Origin: Streptacidiphilus melanogenes
GTDB taxonomy: Bacteria; Actinomycetota; Actinomycetes; Streptomycetales; Streptomycetaceae
Assembly: GCF_000787835.1 (NCBI RefSeq)
Contig: NZ_BBPP01000015.1
Span: 1-64,000 of the forward strand
Reading direction: 5' to 3'
Length of the DNA: 64,000 nt
Below are positions 3,729 to 63,735 of the stretch, piece after piece. The notes beneath the pieces were generated by a model. That model saw nothing but the letters and a program-made list of their open reading frames with translations. It did not search any database and had not been told where the DNA came from. Positions within the stretch are counted from its first letter, which is position 1. Every line of letters begins with the position of its first letter. A program made the position numbers and the translations under genes.

Positions 3729-3753
3729 GCCCTGTCGTCGAAGTGGCTGCGGC

Positions 3754-4749
3754 TCAGCCGTAGAGCTTCTCGAGGTCTTTGAGCTTCTGCTCGAGCGAGT
3801 CCCAGGCGCTCGCGCGCGGGACCGCCGGCATCGTGACGGTGTCGTCCTCGGCCGTCAGGTCGAAGACCCGCCTCGCGGGGCGGGGTTCGTCGGCGTTCCG
3901 GGCGGCCTCTATGGCGGGCTCCCCGGAGCCCATCTCCTCCCGCGCGGAACCCGCGGAACCAGGGGATCCGCCGGAGCGCGGCAGCTGCGGCATGCGGCGG
4001 CCGCCGCCCAGCGCGCGCAGCTGCGGCCGCTCGGCCTCCCGCCGCCGGATCCGCGCGCGGCGCTCCTCGCGCACCTCGTCCACGGCCTCGTCGAGGCTGC
4101 GGACGTTCTCCAGCAGCATCAACGACCAGGCGGCATACGTCTCGCGCGGCGCGCGCAGCCACCGCACCACGCGGATCTGCGGCAGCGGCCGCGGCACGAG
4201 GCCCTGCTCGCGCAGGGCAGCCTTGCGGGTCTGCTTGAGCGCGCGGTCGAAGAGGATCGCCGCGGAGAGGGACATCCCGGCGAAGAACTGCGGCGCGCCG
4301 CTGTGGTCGATGCCGCGCGGCGCGTGCACCCAGTTGAACCAGGCGGACGCGGCCGCGAACATCCAGACGAGACTGCGGGACCCGAGCGCGGCGTCACCGT
4401 GGCTGGCCTCGCGCACGGCGAGCACCGAGCAGAACATGGCCGCGCCGTCGAGCCCGAACGGCACGAGGTACTCCCACCCCCCGCTCAGGCCGAGGTTCTG
4501 CAGGCCGAAGCCGACCAGGCCGTGGAAGGAGAGCGCGGCCGCGACGGCCGCGCAGCAGAACAGCAGCACATAGGAGGCCGACCCGTACACGGTCTCCTTG
4601 CGCCTGCGCCGCTCCTCGCTCCGCTCCCAGGTGTCCGTCCCCTGCGGACGCCCCGCCCGGGCCCGCAGCACGACCAGCAGCACGACCACCACCAGCAGCA
4701 ACGCGGTGAGCGTCAGAACCCACCCGAGAGCACCGTCGCTCAGCCTCAT
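3754..4749 (-). CDS. DUF2637 membrane protein (SpdB-like)
   Basis: A 331-residue protein with an N-terminal membrane segment (about 7-29), then a block of hydrophobic helices (about 55-170) and a long charged C-terminal tail rich in Arg and Glu. The core, with FGLQNLGL, LDGAAMFCSVLAVR and WFNWVHAPRG, is the DUF2637 signature found in streptomycete chromosomal and plasmid spread proteins. Function is unknown; DUF2637 proteins are sometimes linked to plasmid spreading, but no plasmid genes occur here. The start at 4749 follows GGAGGAGACGGCG. It converges with the phosphatase gene, 25 bp away. Confidence 0.75.
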   Translation of the reverse strand: MRLSDGALGWVLTLTALLLVVVVLLVVLRARAGRPQGTDTWERSEERRRRKETVYGSASYVLLFCCAAVAAALSFHGLVGFGLQNLGLSGGWEYLVPFGLDGAAMFCSVLAVREASHGDAALGSRSLVWMFAAASAWFNWVHAPRGIDHSGAPQFFAGMSLSAAILFDRALKQTRKAALREQGLVPRPLPQIRVVRWLRAPRETYAAWSLMLLENVRSLDEAVDEVREERRARIRRREAERPQLRALGGGRRMPQLPRSGGSPGSAGSAREEMGSGEPAIEAARNADEPRPARRVFDLTAEDDTVTMPAVPRASAWDSLEQKLKDLEKLYG

Positions 4750-4894
4750 CGCCGTCTCCTCCCACCCTGGCAAGCCGCGCAGGGCGGGACCATCCTGACG
4801 GAGCAGGAGAGACGATCATGTGGATTTGGGACACATACACCAGAACGGGTGAATGCGCCACCGCTGGGGGCGCGAGCACCTCCCGGTCGGAGGC

Positions 4895-5668
4895 TCAGTC
4901 GAACGTGAGCCAGACCGGGGTGCCGGAGAAGGCGCGGGTCAGGCGGCGGGCCTCGGCGCGGAGTTGGGTGGCTTCGGCGGCAGGGGAGACGTCCGCGAGG
5001 GCGGCGAGGGCGGGGGCGAGGCCGACGGCGAAGCCGGTCTCCTCGCGCAGGCGCAGGGACTCGGCGTAGCCGTGGCGCGCACCGGCGACGTTGCCGTCCT
5101 CCTGGGCGATAGCGGCCAGGTGGCGCCAGGTGTAGGAGAGCAGGTGGGCGTCCTGCTGCTGCTCGGCCCCGGCGTGCGCACGCCGGTACGCGGCGCGCGC
5201 CGCGGTCGCGTCGCCGAGCAGGGCGTGGGCGATGAGGCCGCGGCGGAAGTCGAGGAGGGGACGGGCCGGGTCCTCGGGGGCGAGCAGCGCGGAGGCGCGC
5301 CCCAGCGCCGCCTGCGCCTCGTCGAGGCGGTCGTGGACCTTGGACACCGTGGCGCAGTAAGCGAGAAAGCCGCGCGCGCAGGCCGTCGCCGCGCGTTCGT
5401 GGTTGTCGCGGACGACGGCCTCGGCGGCGCGCAGCGCCGTCTCCGCGTCGTCCCAGCCGTCCCCGGTGAAGAACGCCGCCTCGATGAGCAGTTCGGCCCG
5501 TTCCACCGCGGAGCCGGGGTGGCCGTCCAGGAGCTCCGCCGCGGTCTGCCAGCAGCCGCGGGACCGCAGCAGCCAGATCTGTCCGGCGTCGGGCGTCCGC
5601 TGCTCGGGGATGTGAGCCGCCACGGAGGACTCCGACGCACGGGACCGCTGCTGCTCGGACAAGGACAC
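4895..5668 (-). CDS. Tetratricopeptide-repeat protein, function unknown
   Basis: A soluble protein of about 257 residues made almost entirely of alanine-rich helical pairs (for example FLAYCATVSKVHDRLDEAQ and WRHLAAIAQEDGNVAGARHG), as in TPR arrays of streptomycete regulators. No catalytic or DNA-binding domain is visible. The GTG at 5668 has AGGGG six bases upstream; a GTG 15 bases earlier (5683) has none. Between it and the DUF2637 gene, 145 bp hold no recognised gene. A short rightward frame at 4818 with a good ribosome site runs into this gene on the other strand and was not accepted. Confidence 0.6.
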   Translation of the reverse strand: MSLSEQQRSRASESSVAAHIPEQRTPDAGQIWLLRSRGCWQTAAELLDGHPGSAVERAELLIEAAFFTGDGWDDAETALRAAEAVVRDNHERAATACARGFLAYCATVSKVHDRLDEAQAALGRASALLAPEDPARPLLDFRRGLIAHALLGDATAARAAYRRAHAGAEQQQDAHLLSYTWRHLAAIAQEDGNVAGARHGYAESLRLREETGFAVGLAPALAALADVSPAAEATQLRAEARRLTRAFSGTPVWLTFD

Positions 5669-5758
5669 GCCATCGCCCCTCACTGCGACCGCTGTCGGCC
5701 GCCGTTGGTCCGCCCTCGGTGACGGTCATTCAACACGCGGGCCGCGACCCGCGCCAGA

Positions 5759-6559
5759 TCATGGACGCGAGGAGTTACGGACCAACTCCCGTGCGGCGGT
5801 GTTGACTGCCTGCGGCATGCCCGTCAGATCAAGCTCGAAGAGGGCCACCAGCAGCTGGTCCGCCCGGTTGCGGGCCTCGAGCGAATAACCCGCGAGGGTG
5901 AACATGGCCGGGACCAGCTCGTCACCGTGAAGGGTGTTGAGCCAGAGGCACTCGACGGCGCGCAGGTCGGCGGGCTCGGTCCAGGTGTCCACCTGGGCGA
6001 CGATCGTCGGGCCGAGCAGGCAGACGCCCTCGCGGTCCTGGGAGTCGGAGACCTCCAGCTCGCCGAAGCCGAGCCACTCCAGGTAGCGGGCGGCGGCCAG
6101 CACCGCGTCGTCCGAGGTGCGGACCGGGTGGGGCAGGAACGGCTTGCGGGCGAGGGCACGCGGCGGCTGCACCGGCCGTGCGGACGTGACCGGCGCGGGG
6201 GCCGGCGGCACCGGCCCGGGGGTGACCGGACGCACCGGCTGCACGGGCTGCACCGGCGCCGGCGCAGCGACGGGGCCGACCTGGCGCGGGCGACCGCTGG
6301 TGTCGACGGGCAGCCGCACCGTCGCCCCGCAGGCACAGGTGAACTCGGGCTGCGGCCACTGCTCGGAGCGCCCGCAGGAGGGGCAGCGCATGCTCAGCCA
6401 GGAGTCCTCCCAGGAGCGGAACCGCACCTGCACCGGCACGCCGCCCTGCAGCAGCGGGATCTTCAGAGCCGCCCCGCACGGGCACGGGAACACCGGCGGC
6501 TCGTACGCGTGCTCCCGCCTGCAGCTGGGGCAGCGGACGGGCTTGGGTGAACCTGGCAT
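5759..6559 (-). CDS. Double zinc-ribbon protein with an Mrr-like C-terminal domain
   Basis: About 266 residues. Two four-cysteine ribbons come first (CPSC..CPCG at residues 10-29 and CPSC..CACG near 60-80), then a Pro/Val-rich linker, then a domain (about 150-265) with the pattern of Mrr-type restriction-endonuclease folds: EWLGFGELEVS, IVAQVDTW and AMFTLAGYSLEARNRADQ. Where active Mrr nucleases have Q-x-K, this protein has Q-V-D, so it is probably not a nuclease. The ATG at 6559 starts right at the first ribbon; an ATG at 6655 adds a poorly conserved-looking extension. Ribosome site weak. Role unknown; nucleic-acid binding is plausible. Confidence 0.55.
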   Translation of the reverse strand: MPGSPKPVRCPSCRREHAYEPPVFPCPCGAALKIPLLQGGVPVQVRFRSWEDSWLSMRCPSCGRSEQWPQPEFTCACGATVRLPVDTSGRPRQVGPVAAPAPVQPVQPVRPVTPGPVPPAPAPVTSARPVQPPRALARKPFLPHPVRTSDDAVLAAARYLEWLGFGELEVSDSQDREGVCLLGPTIVAQVDTWTEPADLRAVECLWLNTLHGDELVPAMFTLAGYSLEARNRADQLLVALFELDLTGMPQAVNTAARELVRNSSRP

Positions 6560-6736
6560 GAGGGACCGTCCGTTCCTTCCGAGACCGTGACTCGAGACGC
6601 GACAGAGCGGGACGTTGTTTATGAGACTACGCCGCGGGCGCGCTCGCGGTTCCATGCTTCCCGATCCGGTCCGCGAGCGGAATGCCCATCCGCGCCACAG
6701 TTGGGGAAGGCGTAGCCCGAAGGGACGCCCTCGGCG

Positions 6737-7747
6737 TCAGCCGCCGATGGCCGACATCGGCCGTGCGGGACGCCGGAAGTCCGCGCTGTCGATCGCGTGA
6801 CCTGGGCCCTTGCCCGCGATGCAGGCCCGCCAGGCCGCCTCGATCCGGTCGTCGTCCGCGCCGTCGCGCAGCAGCGCGCGCAGATCGGACTCGTCCGTGG
6901 CGAAGAGGCAGTTGCGCAACTGCCCGTCGGCGGTGAGCCGGACGCGGTCGCAGCCGCCGCAGAAGGGGCGGGTGACGCTGGCGATCACGCCGACGGTGGC
7001 CTCGCCGCCGTCGATCCGCCACTGCTCGGCGGGCGCGTTGCCCTCGCGGGGGACGGGGTGCAGGGTGAAGACCGTGCCGAGGGCGGCCAGGATCTCCTCG
7101 GCGGTGACCATCCGGGCGCGGTCCCAGGCTCCCTGGGCGTCCAGCGGCATCGACTCGATGAAGCGCAGGGCGTAGCCGTGCTCGACGGCCCAGATCGCGA
7201 GGTCGCTGATCTCGTCGTCGTTGACGCCGCGCACGGGCACGGCGTTGACCTTGACCGGCGCGAGCCCGGCGGCCTTGGCGGCGGCGAGGCCGGCGAGGAC
7301 GTCCGTGAGCCGGTCGCGGCGGGTGATCGCCTGGAAGCGGTCGCGGCGCAGCGTGTCCAGGCTGACGTTGACCCGGTGCAGCCCCGCCACGCGGAGCGCG
7401 TCGGCCTGGCGGGCCAGACCGATGCCGTTGGTGGTCAGCGAGAGCTCCGGCGCGTCAGGGAGCGTGGAGAAGGCGGCGATCAGGTCCGCCAGCCCCCGCC
7501 GCAGCAGCGGCTCGCCGCCGGTCAGGCGGAGCGACCGGATGCCGAGACGGGTGGTCGCGATGCGGACCAGGCGGAGCAGTTCGCCGTCGTCGAGCAGGTC
7601 CTGCTTCGGCAGCCAGTCGAGCCCCTCGGCCGGCATGCAGTACGTACAGCGCAGGTTGCAGCGGTCGGTCAGCGAGACCCGCAGGTCCGTGTGGACCCGG
7701 CCGAAGCGGTCCAGGAGCGGGCGGGGATGCGGTGGACGTTGCTGCAT
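6737..7747 (-). CDS. moaA: GTP 3',8-cyclase, molybdenum cofactor synthesis
   Basis: A 336-residue radical-SAM enzyme that cyclises GTP in the first step of molybdopterin synthesis. The N-terminal cluster is C30-x3-C34-x2-C37 (CNLRCTYC). The C-terminal cluster is C263, C266 and C280 (FCGGCDRVRLTADGQLRNC). The protein ends in the functional Gly-Gly tail (SAIGG). The ATG at 7747 is chosen because the family starts close to the LLDRFGR motif; the longer open frame adds unrelated residues. It is divergent from the MobA/MocA-like gene at 7878. Xanthine dehydrogenase at 37.8-41.5 kb needs this cofactor. Confidence 0.93.
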   Translation of the reverse strand: MQQRPPHPRPLLDRFGRVHTDLRVSLTDRCNLRCTYCMPAEGLDWLPKQDLLDDGELLRLVRIATTRLGIRSLRLTGGEPLLRRGLADLIAAFSTLPDAPELSLTTNGIGLARQADALRVAGLHRVNVSLDTLRRDRFQAITRRDRLTDVLAGLAAAKAAGLAPVKVNAVPVRGVNDDEISDLAIWAVEHGYALRFIESMPLDAQGAWDRARMVTAEEILAALGTVFTLHPVPREGNAPAEQWRIDGGEATVGVIASVTRPFCGGCDRVRLTADGQLRNCLFATDESDLRALLRDGADDDRIEAAWRACIAGKGPGHAIDSADFRRPARPMSAIGG

Positions 7748-8526: not shown

Positions 8527-9342
8527 CTACTCCGTCGCGGAGGACGCCAGTGCCGTGCCCAGGCGCTCCGCGATGTCCTGCATCTGCGGGATGAGCGCGC
8601 GGGTGCCGGTGCGGGCCTCCAGGGTCCGCAGGCGGGCTTCCGGACCGGAGATCGACAGGGCGGTGGGGGTGGGCGCGCCGGGGACGACGACGGCGATGCA
8701 GCGGACGCCGATCTCCTGCTCCTGGTCGTCCACCGCGTAGCCGACCTCCCGGGCGGTCTCGAACTGCGGCAGCAGCTCGCCGGGGGAGGTGACGGTGTGG
8801 ACGGTGTGCGCGGGCAGCGGGCCGTTGCCGAGGGTGGCAAGCGCCTCCACGGGCGGGAGTTGGGCCAGCAACACCTTGCCGACGGCGGTGCAGTGCGGCT
8901 GTACCCTGCGTCCGACCTCGGTGAACATCCGCATCGAGTGCCGGGAGGGCACCTGGCCGACGTAGACGACCTCGCCCGCCTCCAGCACCGCGAGGTTCGC
9001 CGTCTCGCCCGTCGCCTCCATCAGTTCGGCGAGGAACGGGCGGGCCCAGCTGCCCAGCAGGCGACCCGCCGTCTCGCCGAGCCTGATCAGGCGCGGGCCC
9101 AGGGTGTAGCGTCGAGCGGTGTCCTGACGGACGTAACCCTGCTGCACGAGCGTGCGGACGAGGCGGTGAATGGTCGGCATGGGAAGCCCCGAGGCGATGG
9201 CCAGATCGCTCAGCGTGCTGACGCCGCCTGCCTCGGCGAGCGCCTCCAGGAGCTGGAAGGCGCGCTCGACCGACTGCACTCCGCCGGCGCGGTCCGTGCC
9301 CGCGGCCCCGGAGCGGGGATCGGACGAGAGGGATGACGTCAC
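8527..9342 (-). CDS. IclR-family regulator, AllR-like (allantoin/glyoxylate regulon)
   Basis: About 271 residues. A winged HTH (GGVSTLSDLAIASGLPMPT and IHRLVRTLVQQGYV) is followed by the IclR effector domain (CTAVGKVLLAQLP and DDQEQEIGVRCIAVVV). In Streptomyces an IclR protein called AllR sits next to malate synthase and represses allantoin-degradation genes. The same neighbourhood (aceB divergent, ureide genes downstream) supports that identity. The GTG at 9342 follows AGGAAGG by eight bases; a GTG one codon earlier and a TTG at 9372 are less likely. A palindromic site at 9378-9394 lies just upstream, consistent with autoregulation and with control of aceB. Confidence 0.85.
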   Translation of the reverse strand: MTSSLSSDPRSGAAGTDRAGGVQSVERAFQLLEALAEAGGVSTLSDLAIASGLPMPTIHRLVRTLVQQGYVRQDTARRYTLGPRLIRLGETAGRLLGSWARPFLAELMEATGETANLAVLEAGEVVYVGQVPSRHSMRMFTEVGRRVQPHCTAVGKVLLAQLPPVEALATLGNGPLPAHTVHTVTSPGELLPQFETAREVGYAVDDQEQEIGVRCIAVVVPGAPTPTALSISGPEARLRTLEARTGTRALIPQMQDIAERLGTALASSATE

Positions 9343-9377
9343 CACAACAGCCTTCCTGGCAGGGTCCGGCAAGCCAA

Positions 9378-9394
9378 CTCAACAAAGTGTTGAA
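9378..9394. promoter_or_regulatory. Operator site 1 of the ureide/glyoxylate regulon (IclR-aceB intergenic)
   Basis: CTCAACAAAGTGTTGAA. TCAACA and TGTTGA are perfect inverted arms around a 3-bp centre. The site overlaps the putative aceB -35 box and lies about 36 bp upstream of the IclR start. Four more copies occur at 17041, 17751, 22699 and 22723. Confidence 0.75.
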
Positions 9395-9418
9395 TTTCTG
9401 TATCGCGGAAACTAGCCT
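9390..9418 (+). promoter_or_regulatory. Putative aceB promoter
   Basis: TTGAAT (9390-9395), a 17-bp spacer and TAGCCT (9413-9418). The -35 overlaps operator site 1. The spacer holds a second partial palindrome, TTCTGTATCGCGGAA (9396-9410), whose reverse complement resembles a site in the hyi promoter (17803-17817). Confidence 0.55.
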
Positions 9419-9491
9419 CCACCTTACAGAAGCGAGGCGCGCCGCACAGTGCGCTTCGATCATCCGCATCTTCTGATCTGACGAGGGTTCC

Positions 9492-11114
9492 ATGGGTGCA
9501 GTGCAGGAAACCGGGAGCAAGCCGCTTCCCACCGGGGTCGAGATCGTCGGGCCGGTGGTGGACCGCGGGGACGAGGTGCTGACTCCGGCCGCACTCGCCT
9601 TCGTCGCCGACCTGCACCGACGCTTCGGTGCCCGCCGCAACGAGCTGCTCGCACGCCGCAAGGAGCGCCGCGCCGAGATCGCGCGCACCGGGAGGCTGGA
9701 CTTCCTCCCCGAGACCGCCGAGATCCGCATCTCCGAGTGGCAGGTCGCTCCCGCGCCGCGGGCGCTGAACGACCGCCGCGTCGAGATCACCGGCCCGACC
9801 GACCGCAAGATGACCATCAACGCGCTCAACTCCGGCGCCAAGGTCTGGCTCGCGGACTTCGAGGACGCCACCGCGCCCAGCTGGCGCAACCTGATCGAGG
9901 GTCAGCTCAACCTCACCGCCGCGCTGTCCCGCACGATCGACTTCACCTCGCCGGAAGGCAAGGAGTACAAGCTGGGGCCCGACGCCGAGCTCGCCACCAT
10001 CGTGGTCCGCCCGCGCGGCTGGCACCTGGACGAGGCGCACCTGCGCGTCGACGGCGAGCCGGTGGCCGGCGCGTTCGTCGACTTCGGCCTGTACTTGTTC
10101 CGCAACGCGGCGACGCTGCTCGCCCGCGGCGAGCAGGACCCCAACTCCGGTCCCTACTTCTACCTCCCGAAGACCGAGAGCCACCTGGAGACCCGTCTCT
10201 GGAACGACGTCTTCGTCCACGCCCAGGAGGCCCTCGGCATCCCGCGCGGCACGATCCGGGCGACCGTGCTGATCGAGACGATCACCGCCGCGTTCGAGAT
10301 GGAGGAGATCCTCTACGAGCTGCGCGAGCACGCCGCAGGCCTGAACGCGGGCCGCTGGGACTACCTCTTCTCGATCGTCAAGAACTTCCGCGACGGCGGC
10401 GAGAAGTACGTCCTGCCGGACCGCAACAGCGTCACGATGACGGCCCCCTTCATGCGCGCGTACACCAGGCTGCTGGTCAACACCTGCCACCGCCGCGGCG
10501 CCCACGCGATCGGCGGCATGGCGGCGTTCATCCCCTCGCGCCGTGACCCCGAGGTCAACGCCGCGGCGCTGGAGAAGGTCCGCGCGGACAAGGACCGCGA
10601 GGCCGGGGACGGCTTCGACGGCTCCTGGGTCGCGCACCCGGACCTGGTCCCGGTCTGCCGGACCTCGTTCGACGCAGTCCTCGGGGAGGCGCCGAACCAG
10701 AAGCAGGTCGTGCCGACGAACGACGTGACCGGCGAGCAACTCCTCGACGTCGCCTCCGCGGGCGGCAGCTGCACCCGCGCCGGTCTGCAGAACGCCGTCC
10801 AGGTGGGTCTGCGCTACATCGAGGCGTGGCTGCGCGGCTTCGGCGCGGTGGCGATCTTCAACATGATGGAGGACGTCGCCACCGCCGAGATCTCCCGCTC
10901 GCAGGTCTGGCAGTGGGTCAACAACGCGGTCGTGCTGGCGGACACCGGCGAGAAGGTCACCGCCGCGCTGGTCCGCGAGATCGTCGCGACCGAGCTGGCG
11001 GACATGAAGCAGTCCGCGGGCCGCTGGGACGAGGCAGCCCAGCTCTTCGAAGAGGTGGCCCTGGCCGACGAGTTCGTCGACTTCCTCACACTTCCGGGTT
11101 ACGCGCTGCTGTAG
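9492..11114 (+). CDS. aceB: Malate synthase (AceB/isoform A type)
   Basis: A 540-residue enzyme, the usual length of isoform A. It condenses glyoxylate with acetyl-CoA to malate. Family segments seen: [18 protein letters not shown] (118-135), [14 protein letters not shown] and [20 protein letters not shown] near the C-terminus. ATG start behind GAGGG. It is divergent from the AllR-like gene and carries an operator of the ureide regulon, so it probably drains glyoxylate produced from allantoin rather than, or as well as, serving the acetate glyoxylate shunt. No isocitrate lyase gene is present in the window. A strong hairpin follows. Confidence 0.95.
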
Positions 11115-51185: not shown

Positions 51186-53297
51186 ATGGACTCCACACCC
51201 TCTCCCTCGTCCTCCTCGCCGTTCGACCTGGTCAGCAGCGCCTTGGAGCGCAACCTCTCACGCGGCGGGGCGGACGCGCCCGAGGACCCGGGGGACGGCC
51301 GTCACGATCAGATTCTCGGCGCGGTCAGTCTGGACAGGGAGCTGAGGATCACCCGCTGCAATCTTCAGGCCCCCGTGTTCGCGGGCCTGGACGCCGGAGT
51401 CGGGAGTCCCTTCGTCGACCTTCTGCCCCCGGGGGACGTGCCGACCGTCACCCGGCGGCTGCGCCAGGTGCTGGAGACCGGTGAGGCGCACGTCGCCCGG
51501 ATCCAGCGCCTGCGCCGGAGAGACGGGTCGGAGCTGGTCGTCTCGTTGAGCGTCCTGCCCGCCGCGGCGCCCCAGGAGGGGCTGACCGTCTCCCTGATCG
51601 CCATGGCCACGAGATTGCACCTGTACGCGGCCGAGACCGCGATCGGCACCTCCCTGGACATCGGCGAGACCGCGCAGTCGCTGGCGCAGTCCCTGCTGGC
51701 CTGGGGAGACGTGGCCGCGGTCGACCTCGACTACGCCGTGTGGACGGGCGAGGGGATCACCGGGCAGGGGGAGGGGCGCATCCGGCTGCGGCGGGCGGCC
51801 CTGGTGCCGGACCGGGCGTGGCCCGAGGGCTACGTGACCCCTGGCGACGACCTTCCCGGCGACGCGAGTCGTCTGCTGGCCCAGGCGGTCCGGCGGGACG
51901 ACGCCCCGCAGGCCATCGTCGTACCCGACCGGGAGGCCGTGGAGCGGGTGTTCGGCGGTCCGCAGGTGATGCGCGCCCTGGTGCCCGGTGACCGGTCGGC
52001 GGGCGTGGCGTGCATTCCGCTGGTCCTGGACGGCGAGCCGCCCGTCGTGCTGGGCGTGGCGGAGGTCTGGCGGCGGGCGGACCTCCCGTTCCGCGACAGC
52101 GAGCTGTTCGACCTGCAGGAACTGGTGGCCAGGACCGCCCACCACGTCGACCTGGCCCGTCAGCACCAGCGCGAGCACACGCAGGTGCTGGCGCTGCAGC
52201 GCCGGCTGCTGCCCCGGACGGGCGGCGACACCGTCGAGATCGCCAGCGTGTACCAGCCCGCCACTCCCGACAGCGCGGGCGTCGGCGGTGACTGGGTGAA
52301 CAGCTTTCCGCTGCCGGACGGCCGCACCGCACTGGTGGTCGGCGACGTCGTCGGGCACGGTCTGGGGGCCGCGGCCGCCATGGGCCAGCTCAGCATGGAG
52401 GCCCGGGCGCTGCTGTCCGCGGGGCTGGCGCCCGACGAGGTGCTGGAGCGCCTGGACGAGACCGTGACGCTGCTGGACGACACGGAGTCCGGGCTGGCGG
52501 CCGGCTACAGCGCCCTGGGATCCACCTGTTGCATCGCCCTCTACGACCCGGTCAGCCACCGGATGGCGCTGTCCAGTGCCGGCCACCTCCCTCCGGTGCT
52601 GCTCCTCCCGGACGGGCGCACCCGCCCGCTGGCGGTCCGGCCTCACCCCGGCCTCGGCGCCGAGTTCGCGCTGCGGGAGCCGTTCGGCGTGCACACGTTC
52701 GACACGCCCCCGGGCTCCCTGCTCGCGCTGTACACGGACGGCCTGGTGGAGGACCCGGCCGTGTCGATCGACGAGGGCATCGGCCGGCTGGCGGACGCCG
52801 TGTCCGCGGTCCACCCCTGGGACGACCTGCAGCAGGCCGCCCGCCGCGTCGTCTCCGCAGTGGCGCCCGCGCGCCAGCGGGACGACGTGACCCTGCTGCT
52901 CGCGCGGATGATCGGCTACCGCAAGGGGGACACCACGACCTGGCGGTTGCCCGCCCGGAACGACGCCCCCGCCGCCGCCCGGGCGCGGCTCTCCGCGCTG
53001 CTGCGGCACTGGGGCACCGCGGACGACACCCGGGACGACGTGCTGCTGCTGGTCAGCGAGCTGGTCGCGAACGCGGTGCGCTACGCCAGCGGTCCGATCA
53101 CGGTCCGGGTGATCAGGACCGGTCACGGCCTGCTGTGCGAGGTGGGCGACACCGGCAACGGCAGACCGCGGCTGAGCCGGGGCGGCCTCCTCGACGAGAG
53201 CGGCCGCGGCCTGCGCATCGTGCACCGGCTCACCACCCGGTGGGGGGTGCGCTGGACGGACACCGGCAAGGTCGTCTGGGCGGAGGTCGCGAAGTGA
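51186..53297 (+). CDS. Second PAS-GAF-PP2C phosphatase with anti-sigma-type ATPase domain
   Basis: A 703-residue protein with the same architecture as the protein at 1533: PAS-like (about 40-150), GAF (about 160-330), SpoIIE-type PP2C (about 350-555, VGGDWVNSFPL and VGDVVGHG) and HATPase_c (about 570-700, LLVSELVANAVRYA and ESGRGLRIVHRL). Likely a partner-switching regulator sensing a signal through PAS/GAF. ATG behind GAGGGAG. No antagonist gene nearby; it converges on the polyketide synthase gene. Confidence 0.88.
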   Translation: MDSTPSPSSSSPFDLVSSALERNLSRGGADAPEDPGDGRHDQILGAVSLDRELRITRCNLQAPVFAGLDAGVGSPFVDLLPPGDVPTVTRRLRQVLETGEAHVARIQRLRRRDGSELVVSLSVLPAAAPQEGLTVSLIAMATRLHLYAAETAIGTSLDIGETAQSLAQSLLAWGDVAAVDLDYAVWTGEGITGQGEGRIRLRRAALVPDRAWPEGYVTPGDDLPGDASRLLAQAVRRDDAPQAIVVPDREAVERVFGGPQVMRALVPGDRSAGVACIPLVLDGEPPVVLGVAEVWRRADLPFRDSELFDLQELVARTAHHVDLARQHQREHTQVLALQRRLLPRTGGDTVEIASVYQPATPDSAGVGGDWVNSFPLPDGRTALVVGDVVGHGLGAAAAMGQLSMEARALLSAGLAPDEVLERLDETVTLLDDTESGLAAGYSALGSTCCIALYDPVSHRMALSSAGHLPPVLLLPDGRTRPLAVRPHPGLGAEFALREPFGVHTFDTPPGSLLALYTDGLVEDPAVSIDEGIGRLADAVSAVHPWDDLQQAARRVVSAVAPARQRDDVTLLLARMIGYRKGDTTTWRLPARNDAPAAARARLSALLRHWGTADDTRDDVLLLVSELVANAVRYASGPITVRVIRTGHGLLCEVGDTGNGRPRLSRGGLLDESGRGLRIVHRLTTRWGVRWTDTGKVVWAEVAK

Positions 53298-53343: not shown

Positions 53344-54528
53344 CTACAGCCACTCGCCTTCCAGGGCGGTGGCGGTGAGGCCCGGAGCGGCCGCGTACAG
53401 GACGGCGCGACTGCCCGGGGCCTGCCCGGCGTCGTGCGCCCGCCGCATGATGTCGAACACCGCGGCGCCTCCGCGGTTGCCGCTGGTGTAGCTCTCCCGG
53501 CTGTGGTCCAGCAGTCCCGACGGCCAGGCGTCGGGCATCGTCTGCTCCATGTACTCCAGCACCCGGGTCCCGCCGGGGTGCGCCAGCAGCACGTCGGGGT
53601 GCCAGGCCTCCGGGTCGTCCTGGTAGCGGACGCGCAGCCACTCCCACATCGCGGTGACCGTCTCCTGGACCGCGCGCGGCCCGCGCCGGTCCATCACGAA
53701 GTGGGCGCCGTCCTCCCGCGTGTCCAGGCGGTGCAGGTCCTGGGTGCCGGGCAGCGTGTGGTGCCAGGCGGAGTCCAGGCGCAGCACCGACTCGTCCCGT
53801 TGACGGCCGGTGACCACCGCCGCGACTGCGGTGTCCGCGAACAGCAGCCGGACGATCAGGGACTCGAGCGTGTCGTCCGCGGGCTGGTAGGTGGTGCTCA
53901 GTGCCTCCGAGATCACGACCAGGACCACCCGGTCGGGATCGGCGGCCACGAGGTCCGCGGCCAGCGCCAGCGAACGGGTCCCCGCTATGCACGCCCACTG
54001 CGTGGCCGGCAGCAGCATCGCGTCGTCGCGCAGCGGAAGGCTGTTGGCCAGCGCGACGTCCAGACCCGGCAGCGCCGGGGTGGTGGAGTGACTGGTGATC
54101 AGGCAGTCGACGTCCGCGGCGTCCAGTCCGGCGATCTGCAGGGCCCCGCGCGCCGCACGCTCACCGTAGGACCGCACGGCCTCCCAGGCCGGTGCGGTGC
54201 GCTCCTGGACGGTCTGCGGCGTGGGTATCGCCTCGAGTGCGGCGATGGCGCGGTCCACCTCCCGCTGGGTGAACCCGTCGCGCTGCAAGGCCTCTTGGGC
54301 CGAGGCGACGCCGACCGCCTGGAGGCCGCCGCCGCTGCCCGGCGCGACTGCCGCCTCCAGCGGCAGCATCCAGCCCCGGGCCTCGATGCCGGTGCTCGCC
54401 GCGATGCCGTCGATGCGCGGCTCCCACGCCGCATGCGGATGCCGGTCGCGCACCTCCTCGACGATCTGGCTGGTCTCCACGGTGTGCTCGCCGTGGATGA
54501 CGGCAGGAGGGCAGAGGTAAGCGGCCAT
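53344..54528 (-). CDS. Divergent type III polyketide synthase
   Basis: A 394-residue protein with the thiolase fold of type III PKS. The catalytic triad is readable: Cys180 (ATQWACIAGTRSL), His317 (LLAHPGG) and Asn351 (YTSGNRGGAAVF). RGWMLPLE (51-58) also matches the family. The GFGPG signature is replaced by AAAPG, and FGDGA by FADTA, so it is far from known RppA or alkylresorcylic acid synthases. Starter and product unknown. No tailoring genes flank it. The ATG at 54528 has AAAGGTG upstream. The 380 bp to the esterase gene hold no further gene. Confidence 0.75.
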   Translation of the reverse strand: MAAYLCPPAVIHGEHTVETSQIVEEVRDRHPHAAWEPRIDGIAASTGIEARGWMLPLEAAVAPGSGGGLQAVGVASAQEALQRDGFTQREVDRAIAALEAIPTPQTVQERTAPAWEAVRSYGERAARGALQIAGLDAADVDCLITSHSTTPALPGLDVALANSLPLRDDAMLLPATQWACIAGTRSLALAADLVAADPDRVVLVVISEALSTTYQPADDTLESLIVRLLFADTAVAAVVTGRQRDESVLRLDSAWHHTLPGTQDLHRLDTREDGAHFVMDRRGPRAVQETVTAMWEWLRVRYQDDPEAWHPDVLLAHPGGTRVLEYMEQTMPDAWPSGLLDHSRESYTSGNRGGAAVFDIMRRAHDAGQAPGSRAVLYAAAPGLTATALEGEWL

Positions 54529-58322: not shown

Positions 58323-61001
58323 ATGCGACTCCGCCGCAGATCCATCCGCGCGAAGATCACCGCGTTGCTCCTGGTACCGCTCATCGCGCTGACCGGTCTC
58401 TGGGCCTACACCTCGGCGGTCTCCGCTACCCAGGTGTGGGGCCTGCTCAAGGTCGTCGACGACTACAAGTGGTACGGCGCACCCGCCGACACGCTCTCCC
58501 GGGCGCTCCAGGACGAGCGGTGCGCCGCGGTCTCCTTCGCCGCGACCAGGATCAGCGGCAGGACCGTGCCCGCCTCGGTGCTGGCGCCCCTTCAGGCCGC
58601 GGAGGCGCGGACGGACGCGGCCGCCGCGGTCTTCGAGGCGCACGCCACCGACGCGGGGCACCGCAAGGACCTCAACGCCCCGTCCGAGGACGCGGTGCGG
58701 ACGATCCTCGACCAGGTGAACGCCCTGAAGGTGGAGCGCACCGCCGTCCAGCAGCACTACCTCGACTGGTTCAGCGTCTACGTCTGGTACACGAACGTCC
58801 AGGACCCCTTCTTCGACCTGCGCCTGGGCCTGAGCGACATCCCCGCCGGCGACCTCGCCCGCACCGCCCAGAACCTCGTCGAGCTGGTCCGCGCCCGCGA
58901 GTACATCTCCCGCGAGGACGCCCTGGAGGAGGGCGCCCACCTCCAGCCGGACCTGAGCGCCGTCCAGTTCCAGGAGATGCTCTCCACCTCCGCGACCGAG
59001 CAGCTGCTGCTGCGCGTCCACATCACCCAGCTGCCCGCGCAGCTGGCCTCGCTCTACCAGGACTTCGCCGACAGCTCCGACTACTCCGAGCTCAACGCCC
59101 TGGAGGACTACTCCGGGCAGCTCGGCGAGTCCCAGCACATCAGCCGGCTCAACTACGCGCAGTGGCGCGAGACCGCTGACCGGGTGCTGAACCGGCTCAG
59201 CGACATCGACCAGCAGGCCGCCACCGTCGCCGGACAGCAGGGGCGCGACTACGCCCTCGGCGTCATCTGGCGCGACGGCATCGCCGGCGCGCTCGGCCTG
59301 CTCGCGGTCGTCGCGACCGTCTTCATCTCGGTGCGCATCGGCCGCCGCCTCGTGCGCGAGCTGGTCCAGCTGCGCAACGGCGCCTTCGACCTGGCCGGCG
59401 TGCGCCTGCCCTCCGTCATGCGACGGCTGCGCGAGGGCGAGAAGGTCGACGTGGCCGTCGAGGCCCCGCCGCTCACCGCTCCCGACGAGCCCGGCCACGG
59501 ACCGACCGCGCCCGACGAACTGGCCCAGCTCGGCCGCGCGTTCAACGCCGTCCAGCGCGCCGCCGTCGAGGCCGCCGTCGAACAGGCCGAACTGCGGCGC
59601 GGCGTCTCCGCCGTCTTCGTCAACCTCGCCCGCCGCAGCCAGGCGCTGCTGCACCGCCAGCTTTCCCTCCTCGACGAGATGGAGCGGCGCGCCGAGGACC
59701 CGGAGGAGCTGGAGGACCTGTTCCGGCTCGACCACCTGACCACCCGTATGCGCCGCCACGCCGAGGGCCTGATCATCCTCTCCGGCTCGGCGCCCGGCCG
59801 CTCCTGGCGGCGGCCGGTCCGCATCCTCGACGTGGTCCGCGCCGGCGTCGGCGAGATCGAGGACTACGCCCGCGTGCGCGTCCACCGGATGCCGCCCGTC
59901 GCCGTCGTCGGCGGCGCCGTCTCGGACCTGGTCCACCTGCTCGCCGAACTGGTCGAGAACGCCACCGTCTTCTCGCCCCCGCACACCCAGGTGCGGATCG
60001 TCGGCGAGGAGGTCGCGCACGGCTTCGTGCTGGAGATCGACGACCGCGGCCTCGGCATGGGCGACGAGGCGCTGTCCGCCGCCAACGACCGCCTCGCCAC
60101 CGGAGGCGACTTCGACCTCGGCGACACCGACCGCCTCGGACTGTTCGTCATCAGCCGCCTGGCCGCCCGTCACCAGATCCGCGTCTCGCTGCGGCGCTCC
60201 CCGTACGGCGGCACCACCGCCGTGGTGCTGCTGCCCCACGAGCTGCTGACCCCGGCCGCGCCGCGTCCCGGCGACGCCGCCGGGACCGGTTCGGCGTCCG
60301 TCTCCGGCGCGGAGTCCGGCACCGCCTCGGGCGAGTACGCGCTGCCCGCGTCGCTCACCCGCGGACTGCGCGACGCACCGCCCGAGACCGGCCGCGCCTC
60401 GGGCAGCCGCCTCGCGTCGACCCCGCGCTCCTACCCGGGCCGCCTGGGCGGACCGCGCCCGCACACGCCCGACGAGGCCACCGGCGGCGGCCTGCCGCGG
60501 CGGCGGCCCAACCCGGCCCTGCAGGCCGTGCGTCAGGAGGTCCTGGCGGACGAGGTGCTGGTCGAGGAGGTGCTAAACGTCGAGGTCCTCGACGGTGGCG
60601 GCCTCGGCGCCCTCAGCGCGGCGGACCAGGTCGTCGGCACGGACGTGATCGACGCCGAGGTGCTGAGCGAGGAGGACCTCGCCGTCGAACTGCTGCCCGC
60701 CGTCGAGGACAGCCGTGTCGGCCACCCGGAACGGACCGCCCACGGCAGCGCGGCCGGAAGCACTCCGCCCGCACTGCCCCGCCGCGTGCGGCAGGCGAAC
60801 CTCGCGCCGCAGCTGCGCCGCAGCGGGGACGCCCCCGCACAGCCGGAGGGGCCGCGCTCCGAGCGCACGCCCGAGCAGGCGCGGGCGACCTTCGCCTCGT
60901 TCCAGCGGGGCCTCCAGCGCGGGCGCACCCAGCCCGCCCCGCCCACCGATGACCACACTGGCGCGAACACAGAACCGACTGCGGAAGGAACCACCCGATG
61001 A
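58323..61001 (+). CDS. cvnA: Conservon sensor kinase CvnA
   Basis: An 892-residue membrane histidine kinase-like protein. TM1 about 12-32; an extracellular nitrate/nitrite-sensing (NIT-like) helical domain about 45-305; TM2 about 318-338; HAMP-like linker; kinase core with FRLDHLTTRMRRHAEGL (His471) and HATPase_c boxes (Asn546 in LAELVENATVFSP, DDRGLGMG 573-580, DTDRLGLFVISRL). The long C-terminal tail is disordered. In conservons this protein works with a roadblock protein, a DUF742 protein and a Ras-like GTPase in a membrane-associated signalling complex. ATG behind AGAGGAA. Confidence 0.93.
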   Translation: MRLRRRSIRAKITALLLVPLIALTGLWAYTSAVSATQVWGLLKVVDDYKWYGAPADTLSRALQDERCAAVSFAATRISGRTVPASVLAPLQAAEARTDAAAAVFEAHATDAGHRKDLNAPSEDAVRTILDQVNALKVERTAVQQHYLDWFSVYVWYTNVQDPFFDLRLGLSDIPAGDLARTAQNLVELVRAREYISREDALEEGAHLQPDLSAVQFQEMLSTSATEQLLLRVHITQLPAQLASLYQDFADSSDYSELNALEDYSGQLGESQHISRLNYAQWRETADRVLNRLSDIDQQAATVAGQQGRDYALGVIWRDGIAGALGLLAVVATVFISVRIGRRLVRELVQLRNGAFDLAGVRLPSVMRRLREGEKVDVAVEAPPLTAPDEPGHGPTAPDELAQLGRAFNAVQRAAVEAAVEQAELRRGVSAVFVNLARRSQALLHRQLSLLDEMERRAEDPEELEDLFRLDHLTTRMRRHAEGLIILSGSAPGRSWRRPVRILDVVRAGVGEIEDYARVRVHRMPPVAVVGGAVSDLVHLLAELVENATVFSPPHTQVRIVGEEVAHGFVLEIDDRGLGMGDEALSAANDRLATGGDFDLGDTDRLGLFVISRLAARHQIRVSLRRSPYGGTTAVVLLPHELLTPAAPRPGDAAGTGSASVSGAESGTASGEYALPASLTRGLRDAPPETGRASGSRLASTPRSYPGRLGGPRPHTPDEATGGGLPRRRPNPALQAVRQEVLADEVLVEEVLNVEVLDGGGLGALSAADQVVGTDVIDAEVLSEEDLAVELLPAVEDSRVGHPERTAHGSAAGSTPPALPRRVRQANLAPQLRRSGDAPAQPEGPRSERTPEQARATFASFQRGLQRGRTQPAPPTDDHTGANTEPTAEGTTR

Positions 61002-61405
61002 CAGCCACGACGAAGCCGTCCGGCGACCTCAACTGGCTTCTGGACGACATGGTCCGGCGGGTGCCCGCGATCCGGCACGCCGTGGTGCTGTCCAGCGACG
61101 GTCTGGCCACCGGAGCCTCCGGTGAGCTGGCCCGGGAGGACACCGAGCACCTCGCGGCCGTCGCCTCCGGCTTCCACAGCCTCGCCAAGGGCGCCAGCCG
61201 CCACTTCCAGGCCGGGGACGTCCGGCAGACCATGGTCGAGCTCGACCAGGCCTTCCTCTTCGTCACCGCGGCCGGGGACGGCAGCTGCCTCGCCGTGCTC
61301 AGTGAGTCGGACGCCGACGTCGGCCTGATCGCCTATGAGATGGCCCTGCTGGTCCGCCGGGTCGGCGAGCACCTCGGCACGGATCCGCGGGGCTCGGCGG
61401 GGTGA
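60998..61405 (+). CDS. cvnB: Conservon roadblock/LC7 protein CvnB
   Basis: A 135-residue roadblock/LC7 fold protein (DLNWLLDDMVRRVPAIRHAVVLS, SDGLATGAS, FLFVTAAGDGSCLAVLS). In the conservon it is thought to bind CvnD and regulate its nucleotide state. The ATG overlaps the cvnA stop (ATGA). Confidence 0.94.
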   Translation: MTATTKPSGDLNWLLDDMVRRVPAIRHAVVLSSDGLATGASGELAREDTEHLAAVASGFHSLAKGASRHFQAGDVRQTMVELDQAFLFVTAAGDGSCLAVLSESDADVGLIAYEMALLVRRVGEHLGTDPRGSAG

Positions 61406-61854
61406 GACCGATGCCGGGGGAGCAGGACGGTTTCGACGGCGCCGACGGTTTCGAGGAGGAGCCGGACGACGCCCTCGCCGACCACGACGCCGAGGAGGCG
61501 GAGCTCGGTCAGCTGGTGCGCCCGTACACCCTCACCCGCGGGCGCACCCGCCACGCCGTCTCCGAGGCGTTCGATCTCGTCACCCAGATCAGCCCCGCGC
61601 CGCGGGAGTCCGGCGGCGCGGACGAGGAGGCCCAGGACCCCGAGCACGAGGCGATCCTGGAGCTGGTGCGGGTCCGCACGCTCTCCGTCGCCGAGCTCGC
61701 CGCCGATCTGGACCTGCCGCTCGGGGTGGTCCGCATCCTCCTCGGCGACCTGTTCGAGGCCGAGTTGATCGAGGTGACCCGGCCGGTCCCGGCGGCGGAA
61801 CTGCCGCACGTCGACATCCTGCGCGAGGTGATCCGGGGCCTGCGCGCGCTCTGA
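61402..61854 (+). CDS. cvnC: Conservon DUF742 protein CvnC
   Basis: A 150-residue DUF742 protein (LVRPYTLTRGRTR, then a winged-helix-like part LVRVRTLSVAELAADLDLPL, VVRILLGDLFEAELIEV). The acidic N-terminus is extended. GTG start overlapping the cvnB stop (GTGA). In most conservons cvnD follows at once; here a hairpin and two other genes intervene. Confidence 0.93.
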   Translation: MRPMPGEQDGFDGADGFEEEPDDALADHDAEEAELGQLVRPYTLTRGRTRHAVSEAFDLVTQISPAPRESGGADEEAQDPEHEAILELVRVRTLSVAELAADLDLPLGVVRILLGDLFEAELIEVTRPVPAAELPHVDILREVIRGLRAL

Positions 61855-61926
61855 CACGCGCACGCCCACGGATCACCTGTTCGTCGAATCGGGGCCGGGC
61901 CTCACCCGGAGGGGTCAATCGGACGC

Positions 61927-61948
61927 CGCCGCGGGCTGGCCCGCGGCG
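61927..61948 (+). terminator. Hairpin after cvnC
   Basis: CGCCGCGGGC (61927-61936) and GCCCGCGGCG (61939-61948) form a perfect 10-bp stem. It may end the cvnABC transcript before the inserted genes. Confidence 0.55.
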
Positions 61949-61967
61949 CGCTGGGCAGCTTCGCGGC

Positions 61968-62348
61968 ATGGAGCCACGGATCTGTCCGCCACCCCCGGTC
62001 CCGGCCGTCCCGCCGGTGCGACCGGGAGGCCCGCACATGCCGCCCAGGCCGCCGGCGTTCCCGCCCGCGCTGCGCTGCGCCTACGTCCACCCGCACCCGC
62101 CCGCGCACCCCCACCCGCGCCCGCTGCTGCGTCCGCCGGCGCCCCGTCCCACCCCCGTGCACGTCCAACCGGCCCCGGCCGTCCACACGCACGCCGCCAC
62201 GGCCGTGCCGCGCCCGCTGCCCGCGCCCGAGGTCGCCGCCCAGCCCGCCGCTCCCGAGGCCGCCTTCGTCTACGTGGCCATCACCATCCCCGCCCTGGTC
62301 GCCGCCGGGACCGGCGCCTTCCACCAATTCTTCGGAAGGGGACGCTGA
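61968..62348 (+). CDS. Proline/histidine-rich small membrane protein, unknown
   Basis: A 126-residue protein. The first 95 residues are dominated by Pro, His and Ala (for example YVHPHPPAHPHPRPLLR, with seven His in about 30 residues). A hydrophobic segment (VYVAITIPALVAAGTGA) and a short basic tail end it, so it may be tail-anchored. The stop codon is followed directly by the GTG of the next gene. No ribosome site at the ATG, so the start is uncertain. Codon use and coupling support a real gene, at moderate confidence. Confidence 0.5.
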   Translation: MEPRICPPPPVPAVPPVRPGGPHMPPRPPAFPPALRCAYVHPHPPAHPHPRPLLRPPAPRPTPVHVQPAPAVHTHAATAVPRPLPAPEVAAQPAAPEAAFVYVAITIPALVAAGTGAFHQFFGRGR

Positions 62349-63086
62349 GTGGACCTCGGTTTCCTGTTCGCCGCGATCGTCGGCCTCGCCCTCGCGGTGC
62401 TCGTCCTCGCCCTCTTCGGCCGCACCGCCCGCTCGCGCGAGGGAGTCTTCTCCGGCAGCGCCCTCGCCTTCCTCGGCTCGGCGTCCCTGTCCTCCTTCGT
62501 CCTCATCGCCGCCTTCCTCATCGCGGGCTCCTGGTCCAACCTCAACACCGCGCGGGGCCACACCCTCGACGAGGCCCGCGCCCTCAACGCCGCCTACACG
62601 GACGCGGACGCGCACACCCGCCCGCTGCTGCACGCCTACGTGACCTCGGTGATCCACGACGAGTGGCCCACGATGGCCAAGGGCCAGGCCAGCCCGGTGT
62701 CCTGGGAGCGGCTCGACGCAGTGCGCGCCCAGGTCCTGGCCGAACCGTCCTCGGCCGCCCGCGAGCAGGAGCTCAGCGACCTGGGCGGCGTCTACACGAG
62801 CCGGCAGGTCCGCCTGGCCGACTCCTGGGCGACGATGCCGTGGCCGCTGTATCCCGCGCTGGTCTGCACCGGACTGCTGGTCCTGCTCTACGCCCCGATC
62901 GCGGGCCTCACCTTCCACCGGCGCGAGGCGGTGGCGCTGGGCCTGGTCGGGGCGGTGGTCGGCTTCGGGGTGTGGATGGTGCTGCACATGACCCACCCGT
63001 ACACCGGCCCGGTCCACGTGACACCGGTGGCATACACACAATCCCTGCAACGCTTCACGCAGTTGGCGGGCACGGTGCCGAAGTAG
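62349..63086 (+). CDS. DUF4239 membrane protein
   Basis: A 245-residue protein with four membrane segments (about 4-22, 38-58, 166-186, 193-215) and the DUF4239/bestrophin-like pattern (GSWSNLNTARGHTLDEARALNAAY, HAYVTSVIHDEWPTMAKGQ split here into two parts). Function unknown. GTG start directly after the preceding stop, with GGAAGGGG upstream. It lies between cvnC and cvnD, which is unusual. Confidence 0.72.
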   Translation: MDLGFLFAAIVGLALAVLVLALFGRTARSREGVFSGSALAFLGSASLSSFVLIAAFLIAGSWSNLNTARGHTLDEARALNAAYTDADAHTRPLLHAYVTSVIHDEWPTMAKGQASPVSWERLDAVRAQVLAEPSSAAREQELSDLGGVYTSRQVRLADSWATMPWPLYPALVCTGLLVLLYAPIAGLTFHRREAVALGLVGAVVGFGVWMVLHMTHPYTGPVHVTPVAYTQSLQRFTQLAGTVPK

Positions 63087-63141
63087 CGGCGTGGTGCGCG
63101 CGACATGGGGGGTGAGGTTCCGCACGCCGGTCCGCATTGCC

Positions 63142-63147
63142 TATGAT
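63142..63147 (+). promoter_or_regulatory. -10 box for a separate, leaderless cvnD transcript
   Basis: TATGAT, a near-consensus -10, ends six bases before the GTG at 63154 and nine before the ATG at 63157. No ribosome site is seen. Confidence 0.6.
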
Positions 63148-63153
63148 GCGCGC

Positions 63154-63735
63154 GTGATGCGTGGCACGAAGGGGGACGGCTCGTTCGTCGCCGTCAAGAT
63201 CCTTGTTGCGGGCGGCTTCGGCGCGGGCAAGACGACGCTGGTCGGAGCCGTCAGCGAGATCCGGCCTTTGCGGACGGAGGAACGGCTGAGCGAGGCGGGT
63301 CGTCCCGTCGACGACACGCACGGGGTGGAGGGCAAGACGACCACCACCGTCGCCATGGACTTCGGCCGGATCGACATCCGGGAGGGCCTGGCGGTCTACC
63401 TCTTCGGCACGCCCGGCCAGGACCGGTTCTGGTTCGTCTGGGACGAGCTGGCCCAGGGGGCCCTCGGCGCCGTCGTGCTCGCCGACACACGGCGGCTGGA
63501 GGACTGCTTCCCGTCCGTCGACTACTTCGAGCGGCGCGGCATCCCTTTCGTCGTCGCCGTCAACTGCTTCGAGGGCGCTCAGCACTACCCGGCGGACCAG
63601 GTGCGCGACGCGCTCGACCTCGGCGCGCACGTGCCGGTCGTGCTCTGCGACGCACGGGAGCGGGACTCCGTCAAGGAGGTCCTGGTGCACGTGGTCGAAC
63701 TTGCGCTGACCGAGCGGGAGTCCGTCTACAGCTGA
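63154..63735 (+). CDS. cvnD: Conservon Ras-like GTPase CvnD
   Basis: A 193-residue GTP-binding protein of the CvnD family. Walker A GGFGAGKTT (20-28); switch region EGKTTTTVAMDFGRI; LFGTPGQDRFWFVWDEL (G3); ADTRRLEDCFPSVDYFE; NCFEG (G4-like). It should act with CvnA-C at the membrane. Start chosen at GTG 63154 from the -10 spacing; ATG 63157 is equally possible. Its separation from cvnC by two genes and its own promoter are atypical. Confidence 0.92.
   Translation: MMRGTKGDGSFVAVKILVAGGFGAGKTTLVGAVSEIRPLRTEERLSEAGRPVDDTHGVEGKTTTTVAMDFGRIDIREGLAVYLFGTPGQDRFWFVWDELAQGALGAVVLADTRRLEDCFPSVDYFERRGIPFVVAVNCFEGAQHYPADQVRDALDLGAHVPVVLCDARERDSVKEVLVHVVELALTERESVYS

Follow-up and report, generated by a model that had tools for sequence, protein, structure and literature searches.

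A two-gene membrane module between cvnC and cvnD in a split conservon of Streptacidiphilus

Introduction

Surveys recognise conservons by a contiguous gene order in which cvnD lies three genes from cvnA (PMC13343842, available text). According to the same text, in the mycobacterial Mfp system the CvnB-type protein is the GTPase-activating protein and the CvnC-type protein the guanine nucleotide exchange factor of a CvnD-type GTPase, and the known accessory genes cvnE (P450) and cvnF (GAF) follow cvnD and are partnered with a CvnA that has no sensor domain. Here we describe a conservon of Streptacidiphilus melanogenes, found in a stretch of 64,000 nt (contig NZ_BBPP01000015.1, positions 1 to 64,000; referred to below as the window), in which cvnC and cvnD are separated by two membrane-type genes, designated X and E.

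The locus shares with canonical conservons all four core components and their domains, and the CvnD proteins of such split loci group weakly with canonical CvnD of Kitasatospora and of group g11. It differs from them in that cvnC is not directly followed by cvnD, the usual overlapping start codon of cvnD is absent, and cvnD has a promoter-type box of its own. Conservons with cvnE or cvnF, as described in the available text of PMC13343842, likewise carry extra genes beside the four core genes, but here the additions are two membrane-type genes placed before cvnD, and the CvnA protein carries a NIT domain. Neither added gene has the features of CvnE or CvnF: E belongs to PF14023, X has no family match, and the CvnA is of the sensor-bearing kind. 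We consider it probable that an X-E module split an ancestral conservon, that cvnD exchanged its overlapping start for a leaderless promoter, and that the locus is now expressed as three units.

Results and Discussion

Organisation and conservation of the split locus

The six genes are arranged cvnA-cvnB-cvnC-X-E-cvnD on the forward strand. The first, cvnA (nt 58323–61001), encodes a histidine-kinase-like sensor with Pfam domains NIT and HATPase_c, and is followed by cvnB (nt 60998–61405), specifying a Roadblock/LC7 (Robl_LC7) protein of the MglB type, and cvnC (nt 61402–61854), specifying a DUF742 protein. These three overlap, with ATGA at the cvnA/cvnB junction (nt 60998–61001) and GTGA at the cvnB/cvnC junction (nt 61402–61405). 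X (nt 61968–62348) codes for a Pro/His-rich protein of 126 aa, and E (nt 62349–63086) for a Bestrophin-like membrane protein of the DUF4239 family (PF14023, 95.1 bits, cut-off 32). The small GTPase gene cvnD (nt 63154–63735) has a GTG start, and the best Pfam match of its product is ATP_bind_1 (115 bits, cut-off 27). All four core parts (NIT plus HATPase_c, Robl_LC7, DUF742 and ATP_bind_1) score above their Pfam cut-offs. The initial annotation, made from the window sequence, had described a split conservon of overlapping A, B and C genes followed by X, a DUF4239 gene and cvnD; its coordinates, domains, both overlaps and the family of E proved correct. Because X and E separate cvnC from cvnD, which lies five genes from cvnA, the locus is a split derivative rather than a canonical conservon.

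Comparison across the genus showed that the split order is not an insertion in a single strain. A close ortholog of E (70–100% identity) is present in all 14 Streptacidiphilus genomes compared and is followed directly by cvnD in each of them; X was also detected in all 14 (gene calls outside the window were made with our own frame-bias script). Both cvnB and cvnC lie upstream in all 13 loci whose contig extends that far, while in genome G008 the contig begins inside X and cvnB is on a separate contig. Two loci are absent from the set of 12 used in the CvnD tree and in the count of cvnC ends given below: L144 (genome G013, completeness 76), in which the cvnB and cvnD frames are broken, and L150, which has no cvnC. 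The genome containing the window has six other DUF742 loci, and in these B, C and D are together. Ratios of nonsynonymous to synonymous substitution rates (dN/dS), calculated for three close species, were below 0.35 for all six genes, with values of 0.02–0.05 for cvnD, 0.14–0.22 for E, 0.17–0.34 for X and about 0.11–0.22 for cvnA and cvnC; CvnB showed no amino-acid change.

Absence of the overlapping cvnD start

The split order is probably derived from the contiguous A-B-C-D order, as judged from the neighbours of related cvnD genes, the CvnD tree and the 3′ end of cvnC. In the 17 best cvnD loci outside the genus (L080–L096), B, C and D are all in order and the C and D matches are at most 440 bases apart. 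The CvnD tree (62 rows, including 12 of the 14 split loci) places the split CvnD proteins in one clade (98/85). A weakly supported node (85/73) joins this clade to the canonical CvnD of Kitasatospora, g11 and L196 in an unresolved group. An ATG for cvnD lies inside the end of cvnC, within the codons AAT GGx (two rows with CAT or GAT), in 22 of 29 canonical rows. This overlapping ATG is absent in all 12 readable split loci, where the codon at that place is CGG, CAG or GCG. The seven canonical rows that do not have it show 148–438 bases between the C and D matches; among the other seven rows of that canonical set, six are at 23–62 bases, and L093 retains the ATG at 176.

At the start of cvnD in the window, a −10-like TATGAT (nt 63142–63147, forward strand) lies 6 nt before the GTG at nt 63154 and is a candidate promoter element for a leaderless mRNA. 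In the stretch searched after E, a TA[ACGT][AG][AG]T box placed 6–7 nt before a GTG occurs once per locus in all 14 loci. The looser TANNNT at that spacing was found at 16 of the 8760 GTGs in the 14 stretches, and 14 of these are the cvnD starts. The same pattern precedes one of 179 other predicted gene starts (6–8 nt allowed; start positions in this set are approximate, being frame-bias gene calls) and none of 15 canonical overlapping cvnD ATGs. The conserved box fits the leaderless start that the initial annotation had proposed, and the loss of the canonical overlapping start agrees with it. On these sequence grounds, cvnD apparently has its own promoter, and separate expression of the GTPase is possible.

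Other conservons opened between cvnC and cvnD

Wide cvnB-cvnD gaps outside the genus, spotted by eye among the matches listed, numbered at least 12, and 10 of these were examined (all but those in G094 and G159), a non-systematic tally of loci rather than of events. In all 10, cvnC and cvnD are separated by one or more genes, and the overlapping cvnD ATG is missing. They thus resemble the Streptacidiphilus loci in the junction that is opened but differ in cargo. Four g9 loci (L206, L207, L208 and L210) carry a gene of about 1210 aa with matches to oxoprolinase/hydantoinase A and B, and the g9 cvnD apparently starts inside the end of this gene. Three loci, two from g16 and one from g17 (L203, L204 and L205), carry a GH3 glycosidase gene. 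Next to cvnD in three g13 loci (L197, L202 and L209) is a gene of 276–280 aa, which in one of them gave a TPR match below threshold. About ten genes fill the cvnC-cvnD interval of one g13 locus. In g13, g16 and g17, cvnD starts after a GGAGAAGAG-type stretch.

Since an oxoprolinase, GH3 glycosidases and a gene of about 280 aa also open related junctions, the cvnC/cvnD junction tolerates unrelated cargo. The same loci from other genera would fit a neutral rearrangement, in which X-E landed in a permissive junction, was never removed and is functionally unrelated to the conservon. However, the split has been kept in 14 of 14 genomes, and cvnD is not decaying but has a conserved promoter-type box and a low dN/dS. 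We regard strict neutrality as possible, if on balance doubtful; it is compatible with the explanation we prefer, in which X-E split the conservon and cvnD gained its own start.

X and E outside the conservon

X, searched in frame, gave no match in Pfam, NCBIfam or PADLOC. Its C-terminal tail is hydrophobic (hydropathy 2.06 over 17 residues), ends in basic residues and is conserved, and from these properties X is a putative tail-anchored protein. A strict rule (Pro-rich, with a hydrophobic tail and a basic terminus) recognised the gene before E in 39 of 55 loci, namely 13 of 14 in Streptacidiphilus, 10 of 13 close loci and 16 of 28 distant ones, compared with 0 of 506 control genes. The rule misses the clear cases L103/L064 and L106, as well as L150, whose contig starts inside X and where X was found at 90% (L061–L064 duplicate L101, L104, L106 and L103 and were counted once). 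PADLOC also returned nothing for E, CvnD or a relative of c1 (the gene described below), and on this search a defence system was rejected.

E scores above the cut-off of PF14023, and the AlphaFold model of the protein is mostly helical and weak (pLDDT 64.9, pTM 0.50). A Foldseek search with this low-confidence model gave a best E-value of 0.066 at a TM-score of about 0.55, with none of 386 matches reaching 0.001. Among the best 50 of the 386, all of them weak, 49 were bestrophin-type as judged by their titles, counting VCCN1 and the 'membrane protein' 6iv entries as of this type. The fold matches agree with the Pfam name and are no proof of a channel. No significant solved relative of E was found by sequence search. 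Unlike the PF14023/DUF4239 family at large, E here stands between X and a GTPase gene, and any channel activity is only putative.

Occurrence of E was examined in a family sample of 200 genomes taken from a larger group. Outside Streptacidiphilus this sample has 13 orthologs at 69–72% identity, 12 in g14 (Kitasatospora) and one in g3. A further 28 E loci are more distant; 27 of them are in other genera and one is the second E of a Streptacidiphilus genome (L116). None of these 41 loci has cvnB, cvnC or cvnD in the stretch examined around E. Of the 13 close orthologs, eight lie on the same contig as the best cvnB match, about 0.65 to 4.95 Mb from it, and five on another contig. A class-wide search found E in seven of 148 genomes at an E-value of 1e-15 or below, the window's own genome included, and cvnB, cvnC and cvnD were absent from the flanks (up to 1.5 kb) of the six others. 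The initial annotation had suggested that X and E may be new components of the conservon complex. This is not supported, because X-E occurs with no cvnB, cvnC or cvnD nearby in 41 of 41 other loci; moreover, the CvnA here has a NIT domain, unlike the CvnA proteins paired with CvnE or CvnF in the available text of PMC13343842.

In Kitasatospora, E is mostly followed by c1, which encodes a protein with no Pfam match. Six of the 13 close non-Streptacidiphilus loci (L098, L100, L101, L104, L108 and L109) have an encapsulin-like gene near E-c1, and a distant E paralog in the window's own genome is also near one (L244, C106:399741-401945). The encapsulin-like gene carries a cyclic-nucleotide-binding domain; the one example searched matched PF19307 and PF00027. 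In G011 and G012, another, complete conservon has beside it a gene about 50% identical to c1 (L239 and L240, about 2800–7250).

A functional link between the two membrane proteins and the GTPase would be one in which X and E are working conservon parts and CvnD-GTP acts on an X-E membrane complex, for example by gating a Bestrophin-like channel. E and cvnD are never separated in the 14 genomes, whereas an antisense flavin amine-oxidase gene (PF01593; L142, nt 8984–10762, and L143, nt 8575–10197) lies between cvnC and X in two of 13 loci, from two species. Because E-cvnD is intact in 14 of 14 while cvnC-X has been opened in two species, this is the best hint of a link between CvnD and X-E. The low dN/dS of all the genes and the Bestrophin-like nature of E, given by Pfam and weakly by fold, point the same way. 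Against it stand the 41 loci where E has no conservon neighbours, the 13 orthologs at 69–72% included, and the distances of about 0.65 Mb or more between E and cvnB in eight close loci; an adjacency confined to one genus can also descend from a single event. Coupling of X-E to CvnD function is possible, and we judge the specific scheme very unlikely. Its fuller form, in which X, E and CvnD would be the output branch of the conservon, with a Ras-like GTPase, translated from a leaderless mRNA of its own, controlling a Bestrophin-like membrane complex that X, from a new family of Pro-rich, tail-anchored partners, would anchor, seems equally improbable. Relatives of the amine oxidase, found by clustering, also occur near distant E genes (L066, L116, L123, L124 and L131).

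The region between cvnC and X

A GC-rich, perfect hairpin (nt 61927–61948) follows cvnC. The search returned a 9 bp stem with a 4-nt loop, which by eye extends to 10 bp with a 2-nt loop, and only one of 200 shuffled sequences of the window had a hairpin as long. It has no T-run, and the terminator pattern scan found nothing at the hairpin or elsewhere between cvnC and X, the sole terminator-like match spanning the X/E border. In the 12 other split loci, the 113 bases that follow cvnC form stems of 4–8 bp at best. The hairpin noted by the initial annotation is therefore present in the window, but it is not kept in those loci, and a role as a boundary element is not supported; its reading as a conserved terminator was rejected. 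Just ahead of it is a GGGTCAATC box (nt 61912–61920, forward strand), upstream of X and common to some Kitasatospora X-E loci. The word GGGTCAATY has 11 occurrences in 1.35 Mb of E loci, counting both strands, and all 11 are upstream of X.

These data bear on whether the locus is one long operon, with cvnA-B-C-X-E-D transcribed through and the cvnD box serving only as an auxiliary start. The six genes share a strand, the gap between E and cvnD is tens of bases, and the region between cvnC and X has no terminator pattern. However, two species have the antisense gene at exactly that place, and X has a partly conserved box of its own upstream. A single operon strikes us as unlikely.

Proposed origin of the split locus

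The ancestor would have had contiguous A-B-C-D genes, with cvnD translated from an ATG within the end of cvnC. In the Streptacidiphilus lineage, an independent two-gene membrane module, X-E, would have been placed between cvnC and cvnD, probably bringing its own upstream control region. cvnD would then have lost its overlapping start and acquired a leaderless −10-type promoter at the GTG. Most likely there are now three transcription units, cvnABC, X-E and cvnD. X and E may form a membrane complex of their own, perhaps channel-like, while the GTPase would still serve A-B-C with its dose set separately. CvnA presumably senses through its NIT domain, and B and C would act on the GTP state of CvnD, by analogy with Mfp.

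Several results weigh against this explanation. The E-cvnD gap is so short that read-through into cvnD may occur. A generic sigma-70 two-hexamer scan of nt 61800–63200 found no promoter and no −35 match; leaderless starts often have no −35. The sequences had already been viewed when the box pattern, the rule for X and the word GGGTCAATY were defined. An exact copy of this word is present in seven of the 13 close non-Streptacidiphilus loci and in four of the 13 Streptacidiphilus loci with sequence at that place; with three mismatches allowed, none was found in L105, L106, L107, L108 and L140, and the matches in L103, L142 and L143 were doubtful. The CvnB tree has little resolution, and taken alone it does not group the split loci together. 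An empty ancestral X-E site was sought through c1 and not found. Relatives of c1 are present in all 14 Streptacidiphilus genomes (eight at 71–72% identity, the others at 45–49%), but no TetR gene lies beside the c1 relative in any of nine loci examined, and therefore no scar was identified.

Upstream of the conservon, the window also carries a PAS-SpoIIE-HATPase gene (nt 51186–53297) and a gene of the chalcone/stilbene-synthase type (nt 53344–54528).

Conclusions

Literature searches, which mostly did not extend to subscription papers on conservons, found none combining conservon with Streptacidiphilus or with oxoprolinase, and none combining Bestrophin-like with Streptomyces; DUF4239 appeared, in the text available, only in papers on other subjects. 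The papers returned for the term PF14023 were, as far as their accessible text shows, nearly all on malaria parasites, which we read as an identifier clash. The opening of the cvnC/cvnD junction by four kinds of cargo may be a new pattern, as may an X-like gene before DUF4239 genes.

Surveys that require cvnD to lie three genes from cvnA, as stated in the available text of PMC13343842, would score the split loci as having no cvnD. A genus in which the GTPase is uncoupled from its regulators would offer a natural experiment on whether a conservon requires A, B, C and D at fixed ratios.

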